Assembly: GCA_003447785.1 (NCBI GenBank)
Contig: DLYJ01000243.1
Span: 1 to 8,201, forward strand
DNA from: Treponema sp.
GTDB lineage: Bacteria > Spirochaetota > Spirochaetia > Treponematales > Treponemataceae
Reading direction: 5' to 3'
DNA: 8,201 bases
Positions 2,666 through 8,201 of the stretch are shown here, piece after piece. Both the position numbers and the translations under genes were made by a program. The notes under the pieces are model-generated. The model was not told the origin of the DNA and searched no databases. It saw only the letters and a list, made by a program, of their open reading frames with translations. Position 1 is the stretch's first letter. Each line of letters opens with the position of its first letter.

Positions 2666-2688
2666 CAAAAAGACTTAGAGTCCTCTTG
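2666..2688 (-). terminator. Hairpin spanning the urtA stop codon; weak candidate terminator
   Basis: The minus-strand RNA can fold a 10-bp stem (two G-U pairs) with a CUA loop: CAAGAGGACU pairs with AGUCUUUUUG, and the stop codon begins in the loop. The U run is inside the stem and only a U-rich GUCUUGUUUU follows, so it is not a classic intrinsic terminator. It could still attenuate between urtA and the pyr genes or protect the urtA 3' end. Confidence 0.3.
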
Positions 2689-3877
2689 CCCATGGATATG
2701 TACTGAGGAACGGATCCGGCTTGATTGCAGTCGGTGTTGCCCAGACTTCGTCAATCATACCGGTGCTGTTGATTTTACCGATTCTGACCTGCTTGTAGAG
2801 GTGCTGGTTACCGCCGTCGATTGTAACAGTTCCTTCCGGTGCGGTAAAACTGAGTCCCTTTGCAGCAACACGTACCGATTCAACATCAAAGGTTCCGGCC
2901 TTTTCGCAGGCAGCAGCCCACATGTAAACGGCAATATATGCAGCTTCAATCGGGTCACCTGTCATACGGGTCTGACCATAAGCGTTTTTGTAGTCTTCAA
3001 CAAATTTTTTGTTGCGCGGAGTTTCTGTTGTTTCGTAGTAGTTCCAGCTTACGAGCTGACCGTTCAAAACATTAAGATCCATCTTGCTTACTTCTTCTTC
3101 TGTGATTGAAAAACTCATTACAGGAAGTTTGTCTGAAGTAAGTCCTGCCTTTCCGAGGGCATCAAAGAAGGCAATGTTTGAGTCGCCGTTCAGTGTGTTC
3201 AATACAATGCTAGGTTTAGCGGCAATGATTTTCTGTACGATTGAATCAAAATCCTTGTGTCCCAGCGGAACATACTCTTCGCCGGCTGTATAGCCGCCAA
3301 TCTGTGAAAGCTGTGCATTGATAATCTTGCTGGCAGTACGCGGGAATACATAATCGCTTCCTACGATAAATACTTTCTTTCCAAAGCGCTCAACACAGTA
3401 ATCTACTGCCGGAACAATCTGCTGGTTTGGAGAAGCGCCCATGTACATAATGTTTGGACTTGCTTCCATACCTTCGTACTGAACCGGGTACCACAAAAGA
3501 TTATAGTTTTCTTCAAAAATAGGTTTTACAGCCTTGCGCGAAGCAGAAGTCCAGCAGCCAAATACTGTGGCTACTTTTTCTGTCTGCAGGAGGCGAATTG
3601 CTTCTTTTGCAAAAACATCAGGTTCGCTGGCACCATCTGCCATAACAGGAACAATTTCTTTTCCCAGAACACCGCCGTCAGCGTTGATTTCCTTAATTGC
3701 AAGAAGTTCTGCGTCACGGACAGATGTTTCACTGATTGCCATCGGGCCTGTAAGTGAATGAAGCAAACCGACCTTTACAGTCTTTGAACCGCTTTTATCA
3801 CAACCTGCAAAAAATGCAGAGCAAAGCATAGTCAGGGCGAGAAGTTTTGCAAAAGATTTAGTAGTAATTGAATTCAT
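2675..3877 (-). CDS. urtA: UrtA-type urea/short-amide ABC transporter substrate-binding lipoprotein
   Basis: This is a periplasmic solute-binding protein of the branched-chain amino acid/urea/amide group (type I periplasmic-binding fold). At 400 residues it has the full family length. A type II signal peptide carries K7 and K11, a hydrophobic core and the lipobox FAGC with lipidated C26; phenylalanine at -3 fits the looser spirochete lipobox. UrtA-type blocks follow in order: GLLHSLTGPMAISE from 37, FGCWTSASRK from 106, LLWYPVQYEG from 127, GASPNQQ and AVDYC after that, then NTLNGDSN, GDPIEAAYIAVYMWAAA and GNQHLYKQVRIG. The close FGCWTS and YPVQYEG matches favour UrtA over LivJ; the amide-binding FmdD is the main alternative. 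The start has an excellent GGAGGG. The gene begins 17 nt after the receptor cyclase stop, and no permease or ATPase gene (urtB-E) is in the window. It may serve a distant transporter or act as a sensing partner of the cyclase. Confidence 0.88.
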   Translation of the reverse strand: MNSITTKSFAKLLALTMLCSAFFAGCDKSGSKTVKVGLLHSLTGPMAISETSVRDAELLAIKEINADGGVLGKEIVPVMADGASEPDVFAKEAIRLLQTEKVATVFGCWTSASRKAVKPIFEENYNLLWYPVQYEGMEASPNIMYMGASPNQQIVPAVDYCVERFGKKVFIVGSDYVFPRTASKIINAQLSQIGGYTAGEEYVPLGHKDFDSIVQKIIAAKPSIVLNTLNGDSNIAFFDALGKAGLTSDKLPVMSFSITEEEVSKMDLNVLNGQLVSWNYYETTETPRNKKFVEDYKNAYGQTRMTGDPIEAAYIAVYMWAAACEKAGTFDVESVRVAAKGLSFTAPEGTVTIDGGNQHLYKQVRIGKINSTGMIDEVWATPTAIKPDPFLSTYPWARGL

Positions 3878-3881
3878 TTTT

Positions 3882-3887
3882 CCCTCC
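3882..3887 (-). promoter_or_regulatory. Strong Shine-Dalgarno of urtA
   Basis: GGAGGG lies 4 nt upstream of the urtA ATG, inside the 17-nt gap after the cyclase stop. It fixes the urtA start. The gap is too short for a separate promoter, which implies that urtA is read from the cyclase message or from a promoter inside the cyclase gene. Confidence 0.8.
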
Positions 3888-3894
3888 AGAACTC

Positions 3895-6800
3895 TTAGTA
3901 TTCAATATCGTATGTAGTCATTAAACCCTTGCCTTTGATATTACATTCAATCGGGTCAGAAAATTTAATGTCTGTATTTTGTAAATGCTGTTTAATCTCT
4001 TCCGTAACTCGAATTTTGCTCGGGCTGCAGGCAGTTTCCATTCGGCTGGCAACGTTTACGGTGTCTCCCCAAACATCGTAAATAAACTTGGTCTTACCGA
4101 TTACACCCGCGTTGACAGGTCCGCAGTTTACACCGATTCGAATTACAAACTTAATATTGGCAGTTTTATTGTATTCTTCCAAGTCCTGATACATACCTTT
4201 TGCAAAATCTATCATAATTTTAGCGTGGTTTTCGCACGGGCTTGGAATACCGCAGGCAGCCATGTAGGCGTCTCCGATAGTTTTAATTTTTTCTACGCCC
4301 ATTTGTTTTGCCCTCTCGTCAAAGCGGCTGAACAAATCATTGAGGGCATTTACAATTTCGTCAGCGGTATGTCCGCTGGAAGTCTTTGTAAATTCAACAA
4401 TGTCCGAAAAAAGGATGGATGCGTCAGAAAAGTTATCCGCAATTACGTGAATATCATCGCGCAATTCATCGGCAATTTTATCTGGCAAAATTGAACGCAA
4501 AAGAGAATCCGACTTGTCCTTTTCGTGAGCAAGTTCCTTTGTACGCTCATTAACCATTTTTTCAAGGCGAGCGTTTTCTCTCTTAATCTGTCTCTGCTTC
4601 AAGTAAAAGACCAATATAAGCAGGGCAAAAATCAAAATTACCAGAATAATCCAGAAAGCTGGAATCTGATAATAATACGGCTTTTGAACAAAAAGCATCT
4701 GCTCAGCCTGAACCGACTTTAATCCGTCACCGTTAATTGCGTTAACAAGGAAGGTGTGCTTTCCCGGGCTAAGGTTTGTGTACGAAACAACACGTCCCAG
4801 GTTTGGTTCGCTGTAGTCATCTTCAAAGTTTGTAAGGCGGTGAGTGAATTGAATTCGTTCCGGTGCGTCAAAACTGATACCTGTGTATTTGATATCAACG
4901 CGCTTTGTGCCCGGTTTTAATTTGATTTCATTTTCAGTAGGTTCAATTTCAACGTTATCAACCTTTACTGATTCAATATGAACAAGAGGAAGAACAGGAT
5001 TTTCCCTGTACTTGCTCGGGTCGTAAATCGCAAAACCGTCTACCATTGTAAACCAGAGCCGACCGTGTCTGTCCCTGATGCTCAAAGCGGTAGAAGTTGT
5101 ACCGTCACTGTCCAGACCGTCATCGCGGCTGTAGAACTGGACTGTTGTAACAGGTCGTCCGGTCTGGGCGGATTCAATAAGGTCATTTGATTTAACAACG
5201 GCAATTCCGTAGTTGCTTGTGTACCAGATATTGTCCTGATCGTCCGGAATCAGCTGGAATACTGAATTAGTTCCAATTCCGTTATCCATGTTAATGGTTT
5301 CAAATGAATTAGGCTTTACATGCGCTGAATCAAATGAATAGCAGCGGCTGACACCACCGCCAGTACAAATCCAGTAAACCTTTTCCTTGTCCTGTGTGAT
5401 TTTAAAGATTACGTTTCCGGAAAGCCCGTCTTCCGAAGAGATGTTTGCAATGATTACCTCATTTCTCATAAGGTAAATACCGCCGCCGTCCGTACCAATC
5501 CATACAACATCATTATTATCTTTGTGAATACACATAATGTATTCATTTTCAAGGCCGTCAAGCTGCTTTAAGTTTTTGATTGTTCCGTCCGAGTGAATAA
5601 TACTCAAACCGGTTGTTGTACCGACATAATACTCTCCCGGCGCATTTTCCATGGCAACACGGACCTTGTTTCCGGCAAGACCTTTATCAACTGTCCATGA
5701 CTTGATTTTGCCCGTTTTTTTGTTGAATAAAACCTGGCCTCGTTTTGAATAACAGCTGACAAGAATCTGATCGTCTTGTGTTACGGCAATATGGCGGATT
5801 CTGATGCCCTTTGTATAAGTGCTGAGCGGGCTGGAAATTTCCTTATCGCCCTGGTAGCAGTAAACGCCTTCGTTGGTTCCGATCCAGACAATGCCTTCGT
5901 GGTCTTCTGCAATCGCATTTGAGGCAATCGGTGTCTGTTTTTCAGTCAAAAGCTTGGTCATCTTGAATTTGCCGTGCTTGAACTTACCGATTCCGCTGTG
6001 CTCGGTTGCAATCCATACATTGCCTTCGCGGTCGCTGATTATTTTGTTGATTTTTACTTCGCCGATTCCGCTTTTTGCGTAATGAGTGTAGGCACCGTTG
6101 TTGTAGGCAACCAGTCCTTTATCCGTTCCAAACAAAAGAGAACCGTCTTTTAATACATAAATTGAACAGGTACTTACCGAATCAAGAATTGTTCCTGTTT
6201 TTTGAATTTCTACCGAGTCTCCGCGGATTTTCAGAATACCGTCTTCGCCAAGTCCAACCCAGAAGTCGCCTTTTAAGTCCTGGGCAATTGCAGAAACAAA
6301 GTAATTTCCGTATTTTTCAAGTTCAGGGCGGTTTCTGAAAAGCCCGCCTGAATACATAAAGAGACCGCGGTCATTTGCGGTAACAAGCCAGACGCGTCCG
6401 GCAGTATCACAGTATAGTGTTGTAGCAATAATTCCCTTGGAAACAGTGCCGGCCTCAAACTGCGGGGTAATCATGTGGCCGGAAGGTGTCAGGTAAACAA
6501 CTCCTGCGGCCGTTCCAATCCAGATATTGCCGATTTTGTCTTCCACAATCGCGCGCACCGAATTGTTTGGAAGACCGTTGTCCATTGTGTAGGTTTTATT
6601 TCCGTTCTGTGATATTCTCTGGAGGCCTTCATCGTTTGAGCCGACCCAGATATTTCCCTTTGAGTCTTCAAGAACAACACGAACGGATGAAAATGTATAG
6701 TTTTTATTGTGCTGCTTGTTAATCGTCTTGAATTCAACACCGTCAAAGCGGACAAGACCTTCATAAGTACCTATGTTTATATAACCGTCCGAGGTCTGAT

Positions 6801-6939
6801 AAATATCGGTCGTAGTCGTACCGGTCAGACCTCCGAATGAGTTCCAGTTCTGATAAACATAGTTGTCAAAAAAGGATTGCTGGGCAGATAAGACTGCCGT
6901 CACCATCAAAAGTAATGCTATAACAATTTTTTTCTTCAT
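3895..6939 (-). CDS. Receptor-type class III adenylate cyclase with two periplasmic seven-bladed propellers and a Y_Y_Y domain
   Basis: This transmembrane receptor probably makes cAMP in the cytoplasm in response to a periplasmic signal. Domains of the 1014 residues: signal peptide 1-19 (VLSA before QQ); fourteen blades of the Reg_prop type between about 43 and 640; Y_Y_Y domain about 680-757; one membrane helix 759-780 (IPAFWIILVILIF onward); charged coiled coil about 781-810; the LLRSILPDKIADEL linker at 813-826; class III cyclase domain from about 836 to the end. Catalytic residues are complete: metal-binding D846 and D890, adenine-specifying K886 and D955, transition-state N962 and R966. 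K and D, rather than E and C/S, predict ATP rather than GTP as substrate. The periplasmic half is that of Bacteroides hybrid two-component sensors, where it binds oligosaccharides, but the output is a cyclase. The start ATG gives a good signal peptide, but the ribosome binding site (AAAAG) is weak. The ligand is unknown. It is followed 17 nt later by urtA. Confidence 0.93.
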   Translation of the reverse strand: MKKKIVIALLLMVTAVLSAQQSFFDNYVYQNWNSFGGLTGTTTTDIYQTSDGYINIGTYEGLVRFDGVEFKTINKQHNKNYTFSSVRVVLEDSKGNIWVGSNDEGLQRISQNGNKTYTMDNGLPNNSVRAIVEDKIGNIWIGTAAGVVYLTPSGHMITPQFEAGTVSKGIIATTLYCDTAGRVWLVTANDRGLFMYSGGLFRNRPELEKYGNYFVSAIAQDLKGDFWVGLGEDGILKIRGDSVEIQKTGTILDSVSTCSIYVLKDGSLLFGTDKGLVAYNNGAYTHYAKSGIGEVKINKIISDREGNVWIATEHSGIGKFKHGKFKMTKLLTEKQTPIASNAIAEDHEGIVWIGTNEGVYCYQGDKEISSPLSTYTKGIRIRHIAVTQDDQILVSCYSKRGQVLFNKKTGKIKSWTVDKGLAGNKVRVAMENAPGEYYVGTTTGLSIIHSDGTIKNLKQLDGLENEYIMCIHKDNNDVVWIGTDGGGIYLMRNEVIIANISSEDGLSGNVIFKITQDKEKVYWICTGGGVSRCYSFDSAHVKPNSFETINMDNGIGTNSVFQLIPDDQDNIWYTSNYGIAVVKSNDLIESAQTGRPVTTVQFYSRDDGLDSDGTTSTALSIRDRHGRLWFTMVDGFAIYDPSKYRENPVLPLVHIESVKVDNVEIEPTENEIKLKPGTKRVDIKYTGISFDAPERIQFTHRLTNFEDDYSEPNLGRVVSYTNLSPGKHTFLVNAINGDGLKSVQAEQMLFVQKPYYYQIPAFWIILVILIFALLILVFYLKQRQIKRENARLEKMVNERTKELAHEKDKSDSLLRSILPDKIADELRDDIHVIADNFSDASILFSDIVEFTKTSSGHTADEIVNALNDLFSRFDERAKQMGVEKIKTIGDAYMAACGIPSPCENHAKIMIDFAKGMYQDLEEYNKTANIKFVIRIGVNCGPVNAGVIGKTKFIYDVWGDTVNVASRMETACSPSKIRVTEEIKQHLQNTDIKFSDPIECNIKGKGLMTTYDIEY

Positions 6940-6983: not shown

Positions 6984-8201
6984 TTACTTTTTGTAGTTAC
7001 GCTTTACCTTCTGAGTCGTTGTCATTTCCAGCGGTTTTTCCAGCAGGGTAATCTTTGTAATGCGGGCATATGGCTGCAAATCCTTGTTTACCTGGGCAAC
7101 AATCTGCCTGATTTCGACCCTTACTGCCTCATTGTTTGCATTTTCATCGCGGTTGAGGCCGAGTCTTGCATACAAATCATCAGACGGATAAATCAAAGCT
7201 TCGATTTCTTCGTTTTTAGCTTCTTTGTCCTCAGTATATCCCTGAACAGTAATCTGGCTTATATCCGTGCAAAGCTGGAAGGCGTTTTCAATTTCTTCAG
7301 GATAAACGTTTTTGCCGCCGGCAGTAACAATCATGTTCTTTGCCCGTCCTGCGAGCATCAGATAGCCTTCTTTATCGAGCCATCCCAGGTCGCCTGTCTT
7401 AAAGAAGCCGTCAGCCGTAAATACTTTTGCAGTTTCTTCCGGCATCTGGTAGTAGCCTTTAAATACCATCGGTCCGCGAACTGCGATTTCTCCGATGCCG
7501 TCTTCGCCCGCATCAAGAACTTTCATTTCCATCCACGGGAAGAAGTACTGGCCGACACTCTGAATCTTAAAGTGGTCAATCGGATTGAGCGTGATAATCG
7601 GACTTGTTTCTGTCAGACCATATCCCTGAACAAAGTCGATACCCATTTCGTTGTAGATTTTGAATACGCTTTCTGCCAGTGGTCCGCCACCGCAAATTGC
7701 AATTCGCAATGAATAGATATTTGCCTGTTTGAGAACGGCCTTGAAAAGTTTTTTACCGATGTTGATTCCAAATAATTTTTTAAAAAGGTATGAAATATTC
7801 AGCATGAGGTGAATTACACCATTTACAACCGGGCCCTTAGCCTTAATTCCCTTGAGAATTCCTGCCAGAAGCTTGTTGAACAGGAGCGGAACTCCCAGAA
7901 GCATTGTAATCTGACCTTCCTTGAGTTCCTTCATGAGTCTGCTGACAGCCATGCTCTTACCGTAGACAATTTCGGCACCGCATGATAAGGATTCAATAAA
8001 TACGGCCTGCATTGTATATGCGTGATGAATCGGAAGAAGTGCGTAGAAAACATCACTTGGATAAAGCCTCATTCTCGACTGGGCGATATAAGTGTCAGAA
8101 ACAAGGTTCTGATGTGTGAGCATTACGCCCTTTGGGGTTCCCGTTGTTCCGGAAGTAAACAAAATGGCTGCAAGGTCATTTTCTTCCGGTGCATCCAGGG
8201 C
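6984..8201 (-). CDS. AMP-forming acyl-CoA/acyl-ACP synthetase (N-terminus cut by window edge)
   Basis: This ANL-superfamily adenylating enzyme activates a carboxylic acid, probably a fatty acid, with ATP and loads it onto CoA or ACP. The visible 405 residues carry the P-loop LFTSGTTGTPKGVMLTH at 14-30, YGLTETSP at 194-201, GEIAVRGP, the ATP-ribose-binding aspartate in GDLGWLDKEGY (GDLG at 270-273), the hinge GRAKNMIVTAGGKNVYPEEIEN from 285, and a C-terminal TTTQKVKR whose K398 is the expected adenylation lysine. The frame continues past the P-loop to the window edge (ALDAPEENDLAAIL), and codon 8162-8160 is an internal TTG leucine, not a start. About 150-200 N-terminal residues should lie beyond the window. 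Long-chain acyl-CoA synthetase (FadD-like) is the best guess, but chain length and carrier cannot be read. The receptor cyclase starts 44 nt downstream, so co-transcription is possible. Confidence 0.9.
   Translation of the reverse strand, partial: ALDAPEENDLAAILFTSGTTGTPKGVMLTHQNLVSDTYIAQSRMRLYPSDVFYALLPIHHAYTMQAVFIESLSCGAEIVYGKSMAVSRLMKELKEGQITMLLGVPLLFNKLLAGILKGIKAKGPVVNGVIHLMLNISYLFKKLFGINIGKKLFKAVLKQANIYSLRIAICGGGPLAESVFKIYNEMGIDFVQGYGLTETSPIITLNPIDHFKIQSVGQYFFPWMEMKVLDAGEDGIGEIAVRGPMVFKGYYQMPEETAKVFTADGFFKTGDLGWLDKEGYLMLAGRAKNMIVTAGGKNVYPEEIENAFQLCTDISQITVQGYTEDKEAKNEEIEALIYPSDDLYARLGLNRDENANNEAVRVEIRQIVAQVNKDLQPYARITKITLLEKPLEMTTTQKVKRNYKK

Follow-up and report, generated by a model that had tools for sequence, protein, structure and literature searches.

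The 8,201-nucleotide stretch of Treponema DNA analyzed here (the window) encodes a 1014-amino-acid receptor cyclase (positions 3895..6939, minus strand) and, behind it, a 400-amino-acid UrtA-type binding lipoprotein (2675..3877, minus strand). Since the two genes are adjacent and the binding protein tracks the propellers of the cyclase in sequence, the two proteins probably act as one sensor, which would report periplasmic urea or a small amide as cAMP. In the mechanism that we envision, the binding protein would close on a periplasmic ligand, urea or a similar small amide, and dock on the predicted double propeller. The Y_Y_Y domain, membrane helix and coiled coil would then pass the change to a cyclase dimer, altering cAMP synthesis inside the cell; we infer ATP as substrate, urea as ligand and the sign of the response.

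If this is correct, glycan-sensor propellers, a urea-transporter binding protein and a class III cyclase would form one receptor type, providing a specific example in which a class III cyclase receives its input through a separate binding protein, and naming a ligand that is testable at once. It would also suggest that these spirochaetes take urea as an indication of where they are or of how much nitrogen is available. Every part of the system is already known; what appears new is the pairing of this input and this output in a receptor with a separate binding protein. Searches of openly licensed literature for the architecture, the gene pair or a urea-responsive cyclase did not find this combination, and the named proteins among the 120 relatives listed are called only cyclase domain-containing or hypothetical proteins.

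The genome that contains the window is fragmentary (2.03 Mb in 267 contigs, 75.1% complete). The named relatives with 92 and 97% identity are Treponema MAGs. According to their sequence records, several named relatives originate from goat stomachs.

Architecture and predicted output of the receptor cyclase

The open reading frame, Pfam, an AlphaFold2 model and fold matches together define a chain with a leader, two predicted propellers, a Y_Y_Y domain, one membrane helix, a coiled coil and a class III cyclase domain. Reg_prop, Y_Y_Y and Guanylate_cyc all score over their Pfam cut-offs. In the AlphaFold2 model, which was built from 73 sequences and has a mean pLDDT of 86.0, strands grouped by hand form seven blades within residues 43–329, closed by a strand at 27–32, and seven more within 340–639. 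From this grouping we place the predicted first seven-bladed propeller at residues about 25–330 (5950..6867, minus strand) and the second at about 331–650 (4990..5949, minus strand). With VIA-align, the first range (25–327) matches seven-bladed lyases and the second (323–650) matches WD40-type propellers. After the blades, the model has a Y_Y_Y sandwich, then a single long helix that crosses the membrane and finally the cyclase domain. On the minus strand of the window, these correspond to the Y_Y_Y domain (residues 690–743, 4711..4872; PF07495, 30.9 bits, cut-off 26.6), the membrane helix (residues about 759–780, 4600..4665; a hydropathy peak within model helix 760–817), the coiled coil (residues 781–830, 4450..4599, part of the same long helix) and the class III catalytic domain (residues 835–1012, 3904..4437; PF00211, 187.3 bits). 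Residues 781–830 may also include a cyclase transducer element; an HNOBA match lies at 787–826, but at 21.9 bits it falls below its cut-off of 23.4.

The first-pass annotation had read this chain as a Bacteroides-type double-propeller input module joined to a class III cyclase, and Pfam and the model agree with that reading, the model predicting both seven-bladed propellers. By Foldseek and VIA-align 2, the ectodomain is nearest to those of BT4663 and BT3049, with 686–687 residues aligned. These Bacteroides hybrid two-component sensors (PDB 4a2l/4a2m and 3v9f) resemble the window receptor in the fold of the two-propeller and Y_Y_Y ectodomain, which for the window is predicted, but their output is a histidine kinase and response regulator, whereas that of the window receptor is a class III cyclase; the window receptor also differs in having a binding protein encoded alongside. 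A Pfam scan of the receptor cyclase detected no histidine kinase or response-regulator/receiver family. Near-full-length matches occur throughout Treponema and extend to further genera in its phylum, and the architecture, as judged from these sequences, is not confined to the window genome.

The same propeller and Y_Y_Y module is joined to other outputs in Treponema (loci L085–L104, for example L085:7465-10401, L095:7924-10929 and L101:6889-10410). Among the 20 loci scanned, 16 contain HD-GYP motifs (Pfam HD_5 was checked in two), L101 contains a chemotaxis signalling domain, L088 and L092 contain a cyclase, and the output of L102 could not be assigned. Given the HD-GYP and chemotaxis outputs, one sensor design may serve several signalling systems.

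The cyclase domain is predicted to make cAMP. All six catalytic residues were located in the window cyclase and are invariant in 91 of 91 aligned rows: D846 and D890, which we take to be the metal-binding Asp pair; N962 and R966, presumably the transition-state residues; and K886 and D955, which we assume to be the Lys/Asp pair that marks ATP users, the adenylyl cyclases. The rows comprise 57 close, 12 intermediate and 22 class C members (G036 and G017 are among the class C rows); the incomplete cyclases of G035 and G096 were left out. It is highly improbable that the output is something other than cAMP, with the domain producing cGMP or serving as an inactive scaffold. Guanylyl cyclases are found among the sequence matches, but the invariance of the metal, transition-state and adenine-specifying positions argues against this explanation, as does the structural comparison, in which the C terminus is nearest to a bacterial adenylyl cyclase (40% identity across 212 residues) and other class III cyclases. 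The anchor of the membrane class III adenylyl cyclase Rv1625c consists of six helices; the window cyclase differs in having one membrane helix and a large ectodomain. Its catalytic domain is like that of Rv1625c (7yz9, 4p2f), at 39–40% identity. Six cNMP-binding domain matches are present in the window genome, and the proteins that contain them could read cAMP.

A UrtA-type gene behind the cyclase

The 400-amino-acid lipoprotein is classed as UrtA-type by its TIGR03407 match (521.8 bits, cut-off 492.75), its pocket residues and its pairing with the cyclase; Pfam assigns it to the AmiC/UrtA family (Peripla_BP_5). By ORF coordinates, 17 bp separate the cyclase stop from the binding-protein start (3878..3894, minus strand), and a scan of this gap for promoter-like or terminator-like sites found none inside. 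A terminator-like hairpin lies at the end of the binding-protein gene (2688-2666, minus strand), a weak observation given that 11 such sites were found against 6.9 expected.

To quantify the pairing, a table of cyclase matches was compared with a table of binding-protein matches in a genus sample of 98 Treponema genomes. Among the matches listed at at least 56% identity are 53 cyclases, four of them contig fragments, and in 51 of the 53 the binding protein lies 20–131 bp downstream on the same strand. A 52nd pair, in G096, has a broken cyclase frame, and G035 adds a further pair from outside the 53, its cyclase fragment being cut by the contig start. The cyclase ortholog of G017 has no partner, and no binding-protein match was found in the whole of this 91% complete genome. 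Viewed from the binding protein, 62 copies reach at least 56% identity, of which 53 lie behind a cyclase and 9 ahead of UrtB. The pair is also present at eight of nine named-record loci, the contig of the ninth ending 89 bp past the cyclase, and at all seven such cyclases in a phylum sample of 247 genomes (the genus sample also contains three of these seven; coordinates were compared by eye).

Since the partner gene lies downstream in nearly every closest relative, the input is probably not read by the propellers alone. The proposal in the first-pass annotation that a periplasmic ligand would be reported as cAMP is partly supported, by sequence and predicted fold, as to propeller and Y_Y_Y input and cyclase output; what it overlooked is the adjacent binding protein, the likely ligand-binding partner. 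A small molecule, urea or an amide, would likely be presented by this protein.

An alternative that we consider unlikely is that the cyclase senses its own ligand through the propellers, like the Bacteroides hybrids, and that the binding protein does no more than share its transcript while serving a permease whose gene lies elsewhere in the genome. The fold match of the ectodomain to glycan sensors is in its favor, as is the finding that UrtB/LivH-like permeases, at matches better than 1e-20, occur in 34 of the 53 pair genomes, including the window genome; such permeases might use the binding protein. However, no such match is present in the other 19 of the 53, nine of which are 92–99% complete. 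It also argues against this alternative that all neighbors except the partner vary freely. In a survey of 59 loci, readable upstream in 49 and downstream in 38, the positions outside the pair were occupied by 38 families upstream and 22 downstream.

Relatives of the cyclase that work without a partner would favor the same alternative. By identity, these paralogs form class B (about 47–49%) and class C (about 39–45%). Apart from L062 and L063, no UrtA-like gene adjoined any listed class B cyclase or appeared among the retrieved loci of either class, and the neighbors scanned are unrelated; thus, a propeller-cyclase can exist without a binding protein. At L062:12317-15493 and L063:7369-10408 (two overlapping frames in L063), a class C paralog adjoins a class A pair, so two different receptor cyclases can be neighbors.

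Transporter genes are a feature of other UrtA copies. UrtB- or UrtC-like frames were absent from the cyclase-linked loci fetched, some of which have only 1.5 kb of flank, and four of these loci contain ATPase frames that resemble UrtD weakly (23–31%). The nine permease-linked UrtA genes ahead of UrtB are accompanied by UrtD in all nine cases and by UrtE in eight; judged by this gene content, they lead urea-transporter operons. UrtB over its cut-off was detected in 14 of the 98 genus genomes and in 10 of the 53 pair genomes, and was not detected in the window genome, at 75% completeness.

Elsewhere in the window, a single reading frame adjoining pyrF (3-1652) combines a PyrK-like (Fe-S binding) domain with a PyrD-like dihydroorotate dehydrogenase domain. 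Upstream of the cyclase, an AMP-binding (acyl-CoA synthetase-like) gene (window 6984-8201 plus L132:8123-8764) is split into two overlapping frames in this contig, reflecting either a broken gene or an assembly error; in L006, the gene is a single 592-amino-acid frame.

Co-variation of the binding protein with the propellers

Among 56 distinct pairs (one duplicate having been dropped), binding-protein distances correlate with those of the ectodomain at r 0.715; for the catalytic domain, which belongs to the same chain, r is 0.325. The partial correlations are 0.686 for the ectodomain and −0.172 for the catalytic domain, and the ectodomain value was reached in 0 of 1000 permutations. In a scan of 184-residue windows along the cyclase, each was compared with the binding protein by a partial correlation that holds the remainder of the chain constant. 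Those starting at residues 20–140 gave 0.34–0.48, those straddling the propeller junction 0.13–0.18 and those starting at 340–500 gave 0.30–0.39; values were about zero over the Y_Y_Y domain and membrane helix and negative over the cyclase.

Slow ectodomain columns, which diverge less than the catalytic domain, still give 0.69–0.71 (the slowest 300 only 0.43), so rate by itself does not explain the co-variation with the propellers. Linkage would favor the cyclase end of the chain over the propellers, because the cyclase end is nearer to the binding-protein gene in the DNA. That the binding protein tracks the propellers more closely than this nearer end, and more closely than transporter UrtA does, is a further argument against a cyclase that senses its own ligand: in seven genomes with both proteins, the correlation is 0.869 for the cyclase-linked copy (10 of 5040 permutations as high) and 0.519 for transporter UrtA (381 of 5040). 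The co-variation, a statistical relation and not itself contact, is consistent with docking of the binding protein on the propellers.

With gyrB held constant in 31 genomes, the ectodomain partial correlation is 0.748 (0 of 1000 permutations), and those elsewhere in the chain are 0.472 for Y_Y_Y, 0.525 for helix plus coil and 0.418 for the cyclase. This set excludes G055 and G057, which have two gyrB copies each, G032, G035 and genomes without a full gyrB. Cyclase and binding-protein distances in these 31 Treponema genomes barely correlate with gyrB (r −0.11 to 0.13); gyrB may represent the species poorly, or both genes may travel together from one lineage to another.

A weak correlation with the binding protein (0.33–0.40) is seen for the catalytic domain too. 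Paralogs in one genome might exchange cyclase-domain sequence, and such gene conversion was tested as a possible source of this weak correlation. In 16 class C pairs, mean identity is 0.488 within and 0.491 between genomes, giving no signal; in class B, where three pairs are too few for a verdict, the values are 0.631 and 0.619, with own-genome ranks of 2, 4 and 9 of 57.

Pocket, origin and related receptors

The AmiC/UrtA family binds several small amides. The pocket of the window protein fits urea but could also suit a related amide. Nine residues are near the ligand when Prochlorococcus UrtA is bound to urea: Trp120, Ser122, Tyr141, Gln144, Glu146, Tyr190, Phe192, Asn246 and Ser274 (PMC10392092). 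Aligned to 8hic, with the numbering offset derived by hand, their equivalents in the window protein are W109, S111, Y130, Q133, E135, Y176, F178, N230 and S257. These nine contacts are retained in all 59 cyclase-linked and all nine permease-linked copies. The 59, of which L013 and L155 are identical, do not include G047, which is cut by a contig end, or G016, G026, G037 and G087. Among eight distant permease-linked relatives, none has the pocket Trp or Asn, and in seven the Gln and Ser differ; AmiC departs from this pocket as well, the Trp, Gln and Asn positions being examples. Retention in the pair copies, set against these changes, indicates that the pocket is under constraint and of the urea type. 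A lipobox pattern fits 49 of the 59 cyclase-linked copies and nine of nine permease-linked copies. A structure model of the binding protein, built from eight sequences, was set aside, as its pLDDT was 67.1 and parts of the pocket fell below 50.

It is conceivable, though we think it doubtful, that the pair is a receptor for a ligand other than urea, such as another small amide or an amino-acid-like compound. A urease alpha match better than 1e-50 is present in eight of the 53 pair genomes and absent from the other 45, and 43 of the 53 lack UrtB over its cut-off, both of which favor such a ligand. Against it stand the nine urea contacts kept in every cyclase-linked copy and the changes at the same positions in the distant permease-linked relatives. 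Since urease and UrtB are rare in pair genomes, urea would be a cue rather than food. We tentatively entertain, at somewhat less than an even chance, a fuller account of a urea receptor that reports as cAMP, in which the binding protein of a Treponema urea transporter left the transporter, joined a receptor cyclase and co-evolved with its propellers, so that urea is read and not eaten.

Like UrtA of UrtABCDE systems, the window binding protein exceeds the family cut-off and has the nine pocket residues listed for Prochlorococcus; unlike it, the window copy has no adjacent UrtB or UrtC, lies behind a receptor cyclase and belongs to its own clade. In the binding-protein tree, a branch (100/97) separates the cyclase-linked copies from the rest, and eight of the nine Treponema permease-linked UrtA proteins are their neighbors. 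The permease-linked group needs two changes in this tree, the outgroup does not fall on one side of a branch, and long branches meet there. With class C as root, a FastTree of the cyclases places the partner-less cyclase of G036 as sister to the partner-bearing group and nests that of G017 inside it. One gain of the partner and one later loss would fit this topology, with the direction of change provisional.

The simplest reading, by analogy, is a two-part receptor like NspS-MbaA of Vibrio cholerae, in which a c-di-GMP enzyme is under the control of a periplasmic binding protein (PMC8967002). The window pair would likewise match a separate periplasmic binding protein with a membrane-bound second-messenger enzyme. 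The two systems differ in ligand type and in enzyme (a class III cyclase here, GGDEF-EAL there), and docking has been tested for NspS-MbaA, whereas the window pair is known from sequence and predicted fold. MbaA is not known to have propellers.

In a protein of another spirochaete (L139:5216-7396), PAS and GGDEF domains are joined in one chain to a UrtA-type domain that retains the urea pocket; no leader is visible. It is a possible urea-sensing diguanylate cyclase. As in the window pair, a UrtA-type pocket is tied to a second-messenger cyclase; unlike in the window pair, the connection is covalent, the output is a diguanylate cyclase, and the Pfam scan detected no propeller. Read from its domains, the fusion shows a urea-type pocket coupled to a second-messenger enzyme elsewhere.
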